From Brevibacterium renqingii (GTDB lineage: Bacteria > Actinomycetota > Actinomycetes > Actinomycetales > Brevibacteriaceae): DNA of 64,000 bases. Below are positions 28,420 to 64,000 of this stretch, in pieces. The notes below the pieces were generated by a model that was given only the letters and a program-made list of their open reading frames with translations, was not told the DNA's origin and did not search any database. The stretch's first letter is position 1, and the number at the start of each line of letters is the position of its first letter. Where the stretch lies: contig NZ_JADBHF010000008.1 in the NCBI RefSeq assembly GCF_017808105.1, forward strand, positions 1 through 64,000. Reading direction: 5' to 3'. Position numbers and translations under genes: made by a program.

Positions 28420-30681
28420 TCAGCGCTTGACCTTCTTGACGATGTTCTCGATGTCCGAGCCGAAGGCGTTCTCCGTGGTCAGATAGGTCCACGTCGACGA
28501 CGGTCGCTTGAGACCGTGCGAGTCGAGGTCGATGCCCTCGGCGGTGATCTCGGCCTCTGCGATCGTGGCCGCCGAATCGGCGATGACATCGGACCAGAAC
28601 GAGGAGAAGACGCGGATGGATTCCGCATTGAAGGCCTCATGCGGCTTCTCCCTGGCGAAGGTGCGCAGGTGGATTCCTTCGCGCAGATCGTTGAGGAACG
28701 CGAGGTGGTCGACCCAGCGGGCATCGAGGTGGAAGAGCATGACCTCGCGCAGGACGCTGTCGAGGATCTCCTCCGACTGCTGCTCGACGATCTCGTCGGC
28801 CCGCTCGCCGATCTCGGCCCGCAGCTGGGCCACCGGCTCTTCGTCCTTGCGGATCTCGGCGCGGCGTTCGAGGACGAGATCGCGCTGCTTGGCCATGAGC
28901 TCGTTGAAGCGCCAGGTGTCACGGTGCAGAGCGGTGTTCTGGCCCTCGGCGATCCGCTGGGCGTGTTCGACGAGCCCGCGGGCTCGTTTGGATTCGATCA
29001 GCCCGGTCTCGTCGCCTTCGGTGACGAAGCGCTGGATCTCCGGCACACGAGTGAGCAGCTCGTCCTCGAGGCTGGTGAAGAACACCGAAGTGCCCGGATC
29101 GCCCTGACGACCGGCGCGACCGCGCAGCTGATCGTCGAGGCGCGACGAAGGGTAGCGACCTGCGCCGATGACGAGCAGGCCGCCGGCCTCGGCCACCTCC
29201 TCGTTCGCCAGGCGGATGTCGGTGCCGCGCCCGGCCATCTGGGTCGACACCGTCACCGCACCGGGGGCACCGGCACCGGCGATGATCTCGGCCTCTCGCG
29301 AATCGTCCTTAGCATTGAGCACCGCGACCTCGATTCCGCGTTCGCCCAATCGCCGAGCCAGGGACTCGCTCTCGGCCACCGAGGAGGTGCCGATGAGCAC
29401 GGGGCGGTCGCGTCCATGGTTCTCCGCGACCTCCTCGACGATCGCGCGTTCCTTCGACTCCTGGTAGGTGAAGAGGCGGTCGGGCTCGTCGATGCGGATG
29501 ACCGGCAGGTGGGTGTCGATGGGAACGATCTCGAGCGAGTAGAATTCCCGCAGATCGTCACCGACGGCCAGTGCGGTGCCGGTCATCCCGCATACGGTCT
29601 CATAGCCGTGGATGAGCTCCTCGACGGTCATCTGGTCGAGGATCTCCCCGCTGTCGGTGGTGCCGAGGCTCTCCTTCGCCTCGACGGCGGCCTGCAGTCC
29701 GTCGGGCCACCTCTGCAGTTCGGCGACACGACCGCGGGAGGAGGAGATGAGTTTGATGCGTCCGTCGACGACGAGGTAGTCGACATCGCGTTTGACCAGC
29801 GCTCGCGCGTAGAGGGCGAGATTGACGGCAGCCAGGGTCTCTGAGTCCTCACCGAAGAGCTCGACTCCGAGTTCGGTTTCCACGCGGTCTACTCCGGCGT
29901 CGGTCAGCGACACCGCATGTCGGTCGGTGCTGATCTCGAAGTCGGTCTCCGGCGTGAGGTCGGCGACGAGCGCCGCGATGGTCTCGTCAGCGTCCTCGAC
30001 GCGGGCCGAGCCGGCCAGCACCAGGGGCACCCGAGCCTCGTCGATGAGCACGGAATCAGCCTCGTCGACGATGACGACATCGCGCTCGGGCACTCGCTGA
30101 TCCGCATCGTCGGTGATGAATCGGTCGCGCAGCACATCGAACCCGACCTCCGTGACGGAGGCGTAGAGGACTTCGGCTCGATAGGCCTCACGACGCTCGG
30201 CATCGCCCTGCGTCCCGGAGATCGCCGCAGACCGCACTCCGAGGAGGTCGAACAGCGGCTTCATCCATGTGCGGTCGCGGACAGCGAGGTAGTCGTTGAC
30301 GCTGACGACATGGACCCGGCGTCCCTGCAGGGCATAGCCGGCAGCGGCCAGTGCCCCGACGAGGGTCTTGCCCTCGCCGGTGGCCATCTGCACGACGCTG
30401 CCCTGCAGGAGTCCGACGAGCCCGCGCATCTGGGTGTCGTAGGCGCGTTCGTCGAGAGCGCGTTCTCCGGCTTCGCGGGCAAGAGCGCAGAACCGGGTCA
30501 GCGTCTTCTGCTGCGAGCCGGAGGCGAAGACCTCTCCAGCAGCTTCGGTGAGCTCTTCGTCGCTGAGCTCGGCGAATTCGCGTCCGGCTGCGGCGAGGTC
30601 ATCGGTCGCTCGCTCGAACCAGCCCGTTGTCTTCTCCGCATGGGAGCCGGGGCGGTTGAGCAGGCGAGAAAAGAATCCCAT
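28420..30681 (-). CDS. secA2: Accessory Sec translocase ATPase SecA2
   Basis: Second SecA paralogue, which exports a limited set of substrates through SecYEG in actinobacteria. The 753-residue protein has Walker A MATGEGKT at about 99-106, DEADSVLIDEA in the first nucleotide-binding fold and GRAGRQGDPGTSVFF in the second. It is shorter than housekeeping SecA (about 900 residues) and lacks the Cys-rich C-terminal zinc tail, ending IVKKVKR. That size and ending fit SecA2. GAAGGA precedes the ATG. Confidence 0.92.
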   Translation of the reverse strand: MGFFSRLLNRPGSHAEKTTGWFERATDDLAAAGREFAELSDEELTEAAGEVFASGSQQKTLTRFCALAREAGERALDERAYDTQMRGLVGLLQGSVVQMATGEGKTLVGALAAAGYALQGRRVHVVSVNDYLAVRDRTWMKPLFDLLGVRSAAISGTQGDAERREAYRAEVLYASVTEVGFDVLRDRFITDDADQRVPERDVVIVDEADSVLIDEARVPLVLAGSARVEDADETIAALVADLTPETDFEISTDRHAVSLTDAGVDRVETELGVELFGEDSETLAAVNLALYARALVKRDVDYLVVDGRIKLISSSRGRVAELQRWPDGLQAAVEAKESLGTTDSGEILDQMTVEELIHGYETVCGMTGTALAVGDDLREFYSLEIVPIDTHLPVIRIDEPDRLFTYQESKERAIVEEVAENHGRDRPVLIGTSSVAESESLARRLGERGIEVAVLNAKDDSREAEIIAGAGAPGAVTVSTQMAGRGTDIRLANEEVAEAGGLLVIGAGRYPSSRLDDQLRGRAGRQGDPGTSVFFTSLEDELLTRVPEIQRFVTEGDETGLIESKRARGLVEHAQRIAEGQNTALHRDTWRFNELMAKQRDLVLERRAEIRKDEEPVAQLRAEIGERADEIVEQQSEEILDSVLREVMLFHLDARWVDHLAFLNDLREGIHLRTFAREKPHEAFNAESIRVFSSFWSDVIADSAATIAEAEITAEGIDLDSHGLKRPSSTWTYLTTENAFGSDIENIVKKVKR

Positions 30682-30723: not shown

Positions 30724-32466
30724 TCAGGCCATCGGCCACGAACCGTCGACGACGGCCTCGGCGTTGCTCTTCTTCCGCAGCCAGGCCTGCAGTCCGGCGG
30801 CCTGGGAGCGCTTCCAGTCGGCTTGTGCGGCCATGATCTCGGCATTGCTGAGCACCGCGATTTCAGTGGACTTTTCGGCCAATGCACGGGAAATGTCCAG
30901 CGCGGCCAGCGCGTCGGCGGCGGCATCGTGAGCGTCGAGCAGATCGACCCGGTAGATCTTCGCGGTCTCGATCAGAGTTCGCTTGCCCTTGCGGTAAGGG
31001 TCGATCTGCTTGTCAAGGACGAAGGTGTCGACGATCGTGGGGATGATCGCGGCGAAGTCGATGTCCGGACGGTGCCGGGCCACTTCGGCGGCCATGACGC
31101 TGAGGTCGTAGACGACATTGTGGCCGACGACGACGGCCCCTTCGTCCCTGAGCGCGGAGAACACCTCGCACAGTTCGGTCACCGTCTGCTGCGCAGGAGC
31201 CCCGTTGGCCTGTGCGAACTCAGTGGTGATGCCGTGCACGGCCCGCGCGGACTCGGGGATCTCGATTCCGGGATCGGACAGCCAGGTGCGCACCTCGGCT
31301 GCGGAGTCGACGAAGGCGGCGGTGACGATGCGAGCGGTCGCCGGATCGACCCCTGTGGTCTCGAGATCGAAGCCGACGAGTCGTGACTGCACCCAGGGCA
31401 GCGCTGCGCCGACCGGCTCCTCGGCCATCGTCGGTGCCGGTGCCGGTGCCGTCGGGGGAGCGTCGAGGCAGGGCACTGTCGCTGCTGGAGCGGAGGTGTG
31501 CGCAACTGCGTCCTGAGTCTCGACAACGATCACGGACGCGGACGTTGCGACGCTGGAGACGGTTTCGAGAGCCGAGGCGAGATTATCCGCGGAGCGGCGG
31601 ATGTTCTGTCCCTCCGCCGCCTGCGCGAGAGCGACGCGGTCGAAGGCGTTCGGCACGGATTCGAGGTCGATTCCGTGGTCGACGTCGGTCAGGCAGCGCA
31701 TGACCTCGAGCGTCTTGTACAGGATGTCCTCGACCTCGATGATGGTGGCCGCGCGTTTGGGGCTCAGACCGCCGGTCTTCACTCCTGCTTTGGCGGCTGT
31801 GATGATCGAGTCGAGCGAACCGAAGTTCTCCAGCAGGGTCGCCGCCGTCTTCTCCCCGATACCGGGGGCGCCGGGCAGTCCGTCGGAGGGGTCTCCGCGC
31901 AGGGCGGCGAGCTCCCGGTAGCGCCTGCCGTCCGGCACTCCGTACGCGGCGGGCAGATCGGCCTGCGTCACCGCCTCCCATTCTCCTCCCTTGCGCGGTC
32001 GGAGCACGCTCACCTCGGTGTTCGAGTCCAGCAGCGCCAGCAGGTCCCGGTCCGGGGAGACGATGACGACGGGGGAGCGCGACTCGGCGGCCATCGTCGC
32101 GATGACATCATCGGCCTCGGTGCCCTCCACCTCGGCGATGGGGATGCCCGCTGCGGTGAGCGCCCGGTTCAGAATCGGCAGCTGTGCCGCGAGTTCGGGC
32201 GGGATCTCCGTGCCGGCTTCCTCATCCTTGACCCGCGCCGCCTTGTATTCGGGCATGATCGCGGTGCGGAAGGCGGGGCGCCAATCCGCGTCCATCGTCG
32301 CCACCACTCGGTCGGTCTCGAAGCGGCGGATCATCTGTGCGACGGTGTCGAGCACGCCTCTGACGGCGTTGACCGGCTGACCGTCGTCGTTGACGATCGA
32401 ATCCGGCACCGAGTAGAAGGCGCGATAGTACAGTGCGGGCGTATCGAGCAGAACCAAGGGCTTCAC
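30724..32466 (-). CDS. Fused 5' nuclease (FEN-like) and DEDDh 3'-5' exonuclease
   Basis: A 580-residue fusion. Residues 1 to about 300 are a Pol I-type 5' nuclease: metal-binding Asp8, EADD (117-120), SPDRD (137-141) and the helix-3-turn-helix GLPGAPGIGEKTAATLL (196-212). An Ala/Pro-rich linker (about 305-358) leads to a DnaQ-like DEDDh domain with DLE at 367-369, Asp454 and His513/Asp517. The polymerase domain is absent. Mycobacterial Rv2090 is the stand-alone 5' nuclease. Met347 in the linker has no ribosome-binding site, and the frame is continuous. Probably acts in DNA repair or Okazaki-fragment processing (inference). Confidence 0.9.
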   Translation of the reverse strand: MKPLVLLDTPALYYRAFYSVPDSIVNDDGQPVNAVRGVLDTVAQMIRRFETDRVVATMDADWRPAFRTAIMPEYKAARVKDEEAGTEIPPELAAQLPILNRALTAAGIPIAEVEGTEADDVIATMAAESRSPVVIVSPDRDLLALLDSNTEVSVLRPRKGGEWEAVTQADLPAAYGVPDGRRYRELAALRGDPSDGLPGAPGIGEKTAATLLENFGSLDSIITAAKAGVKTGGLSPKRAATIIEVEDILYKTLEVMRCLTDVDHGIDLESVPNAFDRVALAQAAEGQNIRRSADNLASALETVSSVATSASVIVVETQDAVAHTSAPAATVPCLDAPPTAPAPAPTMAEEPVGAALPWVQSRLVGFDLETTGVDPATARIVTAAFVDSAAEVRTWLSDPGIEIPESARAVHGITTEFAQANGAPAQQTVTELCEVFSALRDEGAVVVGHNVVYDLSVMAAEVARHRPDIDFAAIIPTIVDTFVLDKQIDPYRKGKRTLIETAKIYRVDLLDAHDAAADALAALDISRALAEKSTEIAVLSNAEIMAAQADWKRSQAAGLQAWLRKKSNAEAVVDGSWPMA

Positions 32467-32474
32467 ATCGGATG

Positions 32475-32480
32475 ACGATA
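32475..32480 (-). promoter_or_regulatory. Putative -10 (TATCGT) for fused nuclease gene
   Basis: On the minus strand TATCGT is followed by 8 nt and the GTG at 32466. Confidence 0.45.
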
Positions 32481-63745: not shown

Positions 63746-64000
63746 ATGACCGCCCCATTCGACCGCGCTCCCAGCGTCCTGCAGAACACGCAGCTGTCCT
63801 TCGACAGCCTCGGCACTCCCCTGTCGGAGGTCACCTTCGTCGTCGTCGACCTCGAGACCACGGGCACCCGCGCCGGTCAGTCGGAGATCACGGAGATCGG
63901 CGCGGTCAAGACGCGCGGCGGGGAGGTCGTGGGGGAATTCCAATCCCTGGTCAAACCCGAACAGTCCGTCATCAGCCCCTTCGTCGCGCGCCTGACCGGG
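63746..64000 (+). CDS. DEDDh exonuclease, N-terminal part (runs off window)
   Basis: Partial gene; 85 codons are present, in frame to the last base. The exonuclease I motif VVVDLETTG is at residues 32-40 with Asp35 and Glu37, followed by SEITEIGAV. This is a DnaQ-like 3'-5' exonuclease; related actinobacterial proteins (for example mycobacterial Rv2191) also carry a UvrC-like GIY-YIG domain further on, which cannot be checked here. CACACT 7 nt before the ATG is a possible -10. Confidence 0.85.
   Translation, partial: MTAPFDRAPSVLQNTQLSFDSLGTPLSEVTFVVVDLETTGTRAGQSEITEIGAVKTRGGEVVGEFQSLVKPEQSVISPFVARLTG

Follow-up and report, generated by a model that had tools for sequence, protein, structure and literature searches.

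Among the closest described systems is the flap endonuclease FenA of Mycobacterium smegmatis (PDB 6C33-6C36; a relative of Rv2090), a stand-alone enzyme present as a 319-aa chain in the PDB entry and carrying no exonuclease. In Bacillus subtilis, a solo flap endonuclease (FEN) has been proposed as the main primer-removal nuclease, and cells lacking FEN alone display no detectable phenotype, according to the available excerpt of PMC10191290. Likewise, deletion of fenA in M. smegmatis leaves NucS-type mismatch repair unaffected, as far as the accessible text of PMC11551767 goes. A second relevant family is PRK07942, an actinobacterial DnaQ family whose relative Rv3711 in M. tuberculosis is described, in the accessible portion of PMC4731781, as a Mg-dependent 3'-5' exonuclease with a preference for single-stranded DNA and mispaired ends. 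The extract of PMC5636811 attributes mycobacterial proofreading to the PHP domain of DnaE1 and regards DnaQ as dispensable. DnaQ-type exonucleases joined to other enzymes are represented by PRK07883 (DEDDh plus a UvrC-like part) and by DinG (DEDDh plus helicase), and DNA polymerase I (PolA) places a 5' nuclease ahead of a 3'-5' exonuclease.

Many actinobacteria carry both FenA and DnaQ, with cellular jobs that are unclear. Here we analyze a gene of Brevibacterium renqingii in which a FenA-type FEN and a PRK07942 exonuclease are naturally fused, an identification that we consider practically certain. The exonuclease is C-terminal in this fusion, unlike in PRK07883 and DinG, where it is N-terminal and its partner is not a flap endonuclease. 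The gene was found in a window of 64,000 nucleotides (NCBI RefSeq assembly GCF_017808105.1, contig NZ_JADBHF010000008.1, positions 1 to 64,000). Our results reveal a real, genus-wide and constrained fusion of known domains in a combination that is new as far as we have found; a FenA-DnaQ fusion was not found described in the literature within our scope, outside of which lie most subscription journals, so that its absence there is unproven. Taken as a whole, the explanation of the locus as a fusion whose two domains jointly trim DNA ends appears to us somewhat better than evenly balanced.

Materials and methods

Relatives were sought in a family search of 60 genomes (57 Brevibacterium and one from each of three other genera), in order samples of 297 and 149 genomes, in class and phylum samples of 108 and 149 genomes (both at E<=1e-36), and among named loci, phages, plasmids and viral contigs. 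Gene spacing outside the family was compared in the 29 genomes common to the matches listed for the 297-genome order sample and to the list of the 149-genome order sample.

Protein-level counts refer to 36 Brevibacterium proteins drawn from 37 genus genomes, with G024 excluded because its gene is split by contig ends and stretches L022, L028 and L029 excluded as partial or superseded by longer ones. Set A1 holds 14 of the 36 proteins, and the 20 further Brevibacterium genomes of the family search lie outside all of these counts. A first pair of trees used 96 of 127 FEN loci and 34 of 63 DnaQ loci. The trees that include the sister genera combine fused, sister and outgroup rows: 20, 3 and 17 for FEN, with G462 in addition, and 20, 3 and 18 for DnaQ. 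Start codons of the sister-genus genes are our own assignment.

Results

A single open frame of 580 codons runs from a GTG at 32466 to 30724 on the minus strand, bearing out the original prediction of one uninterrupted frame joining two nucleases; a plus-strand reading of 30724-32466 that begins at 30724 runs into an in-frame stop. The features of the locus are as follows:

32475..32480, minus strand: TATCGT, resembling a -10 box, 8 nt ahead of the GTG; putative leaderless-type promoter
30724..32466, minus strand: fenA-dnaQ fusion gene (580 codons and a stop codon; GTG at 32466)
31552..32466, minus strand: FenA-type 5' flap endonuclease / 5' exonuclease domain, residues 1-305 (PF02739, PF01367)
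31396..31551, minus strand: flexible Ala/Pro/Ser/Thr-rich linker, residues 306-357, no shared motif, low pLDDT
30727..31395, minus strand: DEDDh 3'-5' exonuclease of the actinobacterial DnaQ family PRK07942, residues 358-580 (NF005927)
28420..30681, minus strand: secA2, mycobacterial type (TIGR04221, 925.9 bits), 42 bases downstream of the fusion on the same strand

Pfam places 5_3_exonuc_N at residues 4-171 (2.3e-39), 5_3_exonuc at 182-271 (5.6e-16) and RNase_T at 364-525 (6.5e-11) of the protein. The best exonuclease family is NCBIfam PRK07942 (NF005927, 'DNA polymerase III subunit epsilon'), which matches residues 358-579 with 239.7 bits (cut-off 186) over model positions 4-226 of 232, so that the C-terminal domain covers almost the entire model. 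Together with the residues described below, these matches support two complete nuclease domains of opposite polarity, and the predicted lack of a polymerase domain holds as well, since PF00476 is absent from the protein. The fusion thus shares 5_3_exonuc_N and 5_3_exonuc (SAM fold) with stand-alone FenA, but not its single-domain architecture. The PDB entry closest in sequence is 6C33, the M. smegmatis flap endonuclease (E=1e-52); Foldseek pairs the FEN domain with 6c36/6c33 (TM 0.84 by target length) and the exonuclease domain with 2ido, the epsilon subunit of Escherichia coli Pol III (TM 0.82 by target length, 2.3 Å).

An AlphaFold2 model of the fusion, built from 14 sequences, shows two confident domains (mean pLDDT 87.7), with pLDDT below 50 at residues 308-336 and 338-353. 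It predicts no fixed orientation of the domains, and because the pTM is 0.55 we claim no domain arrangement. In the 36 Brevibacterium proteins the segment bounded by the columns of residues 296 and 358 spans 18-72 aa, has a composition biased toward Ala, Pro, Ser, Thr and Gly, is unconserved, and yielded no shared motif when one was sought; about 180 aa separate the FEN- and exonuclease-matched parts in G467, a Brevibacterium genome beyond these 36. The low pLDDT and unconserved sequence support the Ala/Pro-rich linker expected at about residues 305-358, which is probably flexible.

Both active sites had been predicted to be intact. The FEN residues D8, K75, E117, D119, D120, D139, D141, D192 and D195, and the DEDDh residues D367, E369, D454, H513 and D518, are identical in all 36 Brevibacterium proteins; their catalytic and metal-binding roles are those that we assume from family knowledge. 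The prediction stands in this respect and errs in having named Asp517, for the DEDDh aspartate is D518 and residue 517 is Ala in 34 of the 36 proteins and Glu in the other two. Like PRK07942 DnaQ, the fusion retains an intact DEDDh set, but by eye it has no conserved counterpart of the active-site Arg155 of Rv3711 that the accessible text of PMC4731781 describes. Across 12 chosen pairs, dN/dS ranges over 0.060-0.134 in the FEN domain, 0.038-0.256 in the exonuclease domain and 0.314-1.226 in the linker. In these pairs both domains are, judging from their sequences, under strong purifying selection and the linker is not.

The motif TAnnnT lies 6-8 nt ahead of the GTG start in 36/36 Brevibacterium genes, a count that does not represent 36 independent cases because the genomes are related; in shuffled upstream sequence it occurs in 3.6%. 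A Shine-Dalgarno-like 4-mer is found at -16 to -4 in just 2/36 of these genes. The -10-like box and GTG (window positions 32467-32480, minus strand) suggest a leaderless message throughout the genus. Within the 25 codons before W358, a start codon with a Shine-Dalgarno-like core was found in 0/36 proteins, in keeping with the predicted lack of an internal start for the exonuclease part.

A gene labelled nagA-like, which yielded no NCBIfam match, lies divergently upstream, secA2 lies downstream and a helY-like helicase beyond it, an arrangement common to Brevibacterium and sister-genus loci; the neighbor names nagA, helY and ppm are our own assumed assignments. Wherever the stretch reached far enough, secA2 sits behind the fusion or the gene pair in the Brevibacterium and sister-genus loci, and it is a conserved neighbor rather than part of the enzyme. 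Among 60 stand-alone fenA loci of other actinobacteria, secA2 was found near none (0/60), and within the fetched flank the helY-like gene is convergent in 24, in another orientation in 3 and lacking in 33. Searching the genome of the window with PF00929 gives three matches: the fusion, a 209-aa frame, presumably oligoribonuclease-like, and a second DEDDh exonuclease of the window, at 63839-64000, which runs past the window end (G000:C49:63839-64312, L153). This last is a member of the known PRK07883 family (716 bits) and is followed by a UvrC-like part.

Both domains share one frame in 55 of the 57 Brevibacterium genomes, 43 of them by one full-length row and 12 by two rows with equal open-frame length, 10 of which were also read directly; in G024 the gene is split at contig ends, and its FEN piece continues to query residue 366. 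The fusion is retained down to 48% identity. The single frame in 55/57 genomes and the dN/dS values rule out a sequencing artefact, such as an error hiding a stop or frameshift in the linker, which had been named as a way for the prediction to fail.

Beyond the genus, the class and phylum samples (108 and 149 genomes, E<=1e-36) each contain one full-length match, the window's own genome, and in neither, on complete lists of places, do the two parts lie side by side. Among the matches listed for the order sample of 297 genomes, no row from another genus covers both domains as an open frame; G148 and G312 extend beyond the linker columns only by reading across two to four stops. The 149-genome order sample has an exonuclease match in 90 genomes (11 Brevibacterium, all in fusion-length frames, and 79 others) and none at E<=1e-20 in the other 59. 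In the 29 genomes compared outside the family, fenA and dnaQ were within 5 kb in 0/29; the parts lie on different contigs in 14 and on the same contig, at least about 75 kb apart, in 15. PRK07942 DnaQ is therefore apart from fenA in all genomes compared outside Brevibacteriaceae, whereas it is fused in Brevibacterium.

Among the 80 named loci kept from the matches listed, six are full-length fusions, all from Brevibacterium; the other 74 (by frame length 54 FenA-like and 20 PolA-type) have a FEN match and no exonuclease match in the frames of at least 60 aa of their stretch. Matches occurred in 372 phage records and 344 plasmid records, in none of which does one place cover at least 80% of the query; two E. 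coli rows of the plasmid set, on chromosome-sized records, reach 79% at 27% identity. Viral contigs matched the search pattern in 234 stretches, of which 156 encode a relative, and the best 80 of these 156 match the exonuclease part only, with no fusion. The search for other proteins with the same domain order, proposed as a check of the original prediction, thus finds it across Brevibacterium and, among the matches listed, nowhere outside the genus, whether in the samples of order, class and phylum or in those of phages and plasmids.

In all three sister-genus genomes (3/3), fenA and dnaQ are two adjacent genes in different frames at the same locus, both nuclease active sites being intact in each pair. 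The fenA stop and dnaQ start overlap by 1 or 4 bases, as TGATG in G474 (L277) and as ATGA in G475 (L278) and G476 (L279). The FEN tree shows two of the sister genera diverging earliest, followed by G475 (99/97) and then Brevibacterium (100/99); the exonuclease tree contains one fused clade (97/97), with a weaker placing of the sisters (84/67).

One Brevibacterium genome, G462 (L276, reverse strand around 4408), has kept the FEN part and lacks the linker and exonuclease: its frame ends just past the FEN domain, mid-contig, and is followed by secA2, and a DnaQ match elsewhere in the assembly was not found at E<=0.01. The FEN tree places it within the fused clade next to G003, with support (91/94) that falls short of the star mark, and 0% of 200 bootstrap trees have a branch that sets the fused rows apart while leaving G462 outside. 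Because of this position and these bootstrap trees, the missing exonuclease would most simply be a later loss, although the starred branches alone do not force this reading. The exonuclease is thus dispensable in at least one lineage.

From these comparisons, we infer an order of events running from overlapping pair to fusion to one loss. An ancestor within Brevibacteriaceae would have carried dnaQ directly behind fenA and ahead of secA2, with overlapping stop and start codons. Toward Brevibacterium, the stop and the frame shift would have been lost and a flexible linker formed.

Discussion

We propose that, at Okazaki junctions, nicks and repair gaps, the FEN domain would cut 5' flaps and the ends of RNA primers, and that the exonuclease tethered to it would strip unpaired or mispaired 3' ends at those same sites, leaving a clean nick for ligase and for PolA, whose own 3'-5' domain is unrecognizable. 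The tether would provide a fixed 1:1 ratio and high local concentration, and would need no fixed domain orientation. One enzyme trimming both ends, as originally suggested, is plausible from the sequence; for the more specific mechanism, in which both domains act together at nicks, flaps and gaps, we would put the chances a little short of even. In weighing it we counted in favor the invariant sites, the purifying selection, the single frame in 55/57 genomes, the overlap-to-fusion series set against genes that lie apart outside the family, a PolA without a PF01612 match, and the properties reported for solo FEN of B. subtilis and for Rv3711. We counted in favor, too, that nine PHP proofreading positions of DnaE1 in the window's genome look intact by eye, so that the main proofreading of replication need not fall to the fused exonuclease. 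Against it we counted the loss in G462, the unconserved linker, the exonuclease match missing in 59/149 genomes, the uneven loss of the PolA 3'-5' domain, the lack of effect of fenA deletion in the NucS assay of M. smegmatis, the dispensability of mycobacterial DnaQ and the absence of a phenotype in B. subtilis lacking FEN alone.

Several of these points also fit an alternative that we regard as quite possible, though not the likelier case, in which the fusion does no more than couple expression: a single leaderless message would yield, at 1:1, two enzymes that work independently and do not cooperate on DNA. A linker of 18-72 aa with no shared motif, a model with no fixed domain orientation (pTM 0.55) and a lineage, G462, that dropped the exonuclease speak for it, and the overlapping genes of the sister genera are probably already coupled. 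It accounts less well for a single family having brought the genes together and then fused them when the 29 genomes compared outside it keep them apart, and for the retention of the fusion in 55/57 genomes at identities as low as 48%.

Eukaryotic FEN1 works with PCNA, and an analogous association would make the DnaQ part an accessory proofreader of Pol III that binds the sliding clamp and brings the flap endonuclease along to the replisome. The available part of PMC4731781 reports that Rv3711 (epsilon) binds the beta2 clamp tightly and does not bind alpha directly. A motif scan finds a QxxLF-type motif in the linker of 2/36 proteins only, and the intact look of the DnaE1 PHP positions speaks against this reading as well; we judge clamp recruitment unlikely. 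Far less probable still is the processing of NucS-made breaks in non-canonical mismatch repair, with each of the two domains serving one strand end. PF01939 (NucS) gave a match in 10/10 genomes tested, the window's own included; against the idea, three of the ten come from outside the genus. The accessible text of PMC11551767 describes limited 5'-3' resection after NucS cuts in M. smegmatis, with 3'-5' processing minor in the assay and fenA deletion without effect, while its authors allow for a stand-in nuclease.

The remaining alternative, that the fusion is a decayed DNA polymerase I minus its polymerase, can be set aside almost completely: it would explain the order of 5' nuclease then 3'-5' exonuclease and the matches below cut-off to the NCBIfam PolA models TIGR00593 (over residues 4-309) and NF004397 (over 3-492, reaching into the exonuclease part), but is contradicted by the FEN tree, by a DEDDh rather than DEDDy exonuclease, by a full-length PolA in the same genome and by the separate fenA and dnaQ genes of the sister genera. 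We accordingly reject the original description of the protein as DNA polymerase I with its polymerase replaced. In the FEN tree of 96 rows, 58 stand-alone FenA and 16 fusions are separated from 22 PolA by a branch supported at 100/100. The exonuclease is of DEDDh/DnaQ type (RNase_T / PRK07942), with no match to the DEDDy domain PF01612, and PolA is encoded on another contig, its FEN and polymerase domains scoring high. The likeness to PolA is thus one of domain order, while the fusion differs in lacking a polymerase, in its exonuclease type, in its origin and in existing alongside PolA.

For the PolA of the window's genome, PF01612 (3'-5' exonuclease) gives no match at 0.001, and the PolA of G003 has a partial one just above cut-off (25.6 vs 23.6 bits). 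PolA of the window's genome seems to lack 3'-5' activity, which the fusion would most likely supply; the domain is unrecognizable there and not equally lost throughout. One version of joint end-trimming that we consider somewhat unlikely is a two-headed nick processor, a single enzyme that would hold a nick or gap, remove the 5' flap as well as an unpaired 3' end, and so restore in a separate protein the pair of nucleases missing from PolA since the decay of its 3'-5' site in Actinobacteria. If true, it would reveal a hidden FenA-DnaQ partnership where actinobacteria keep the genes apart.

In the PolA 5' nuclease, the motif GExxDN (as GEKADN) carries Glu in place of an Asp that we take to be metal-binding in 19/19 Brevibacterium genomes read (L148 and others) and in 13/13 readable genomes of other families of the order, 8/21 being unread by the pattern; named PolA rows with Asp are biased because the fetching patterns included AA[LM]RGDPSD. 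A role of the fusion as backup for a weakened PolA 5' nuclease was considered and rejected, since the Glu recurs in the readable PolA of the order's other families, also where a genome has no FenA match.

On its own the fusion is modestly surprising, and the overlapping-to-fused series and a testable FenA-DnaQ partnership add to its interest. The idea that both enzymes work at the same 3'/5' junction, suggested by a family whose genes pass from overlap to fusion, can be addressed on a single protein, which lends itself to testing coordinated trimming of both nick ends, and the ordered series of separate, overlapping, fused and exonuclease-lost states offers material for studying how gene fusions arise. 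As a minor observation, the window's genome contains a second, distant A-family polymerase match (G000:C11:59708-60610; L195, L285; PF00476, 65 bits) in a 601-aa frame, which is perhaps of the actinobacterial PolA2/APEX type.
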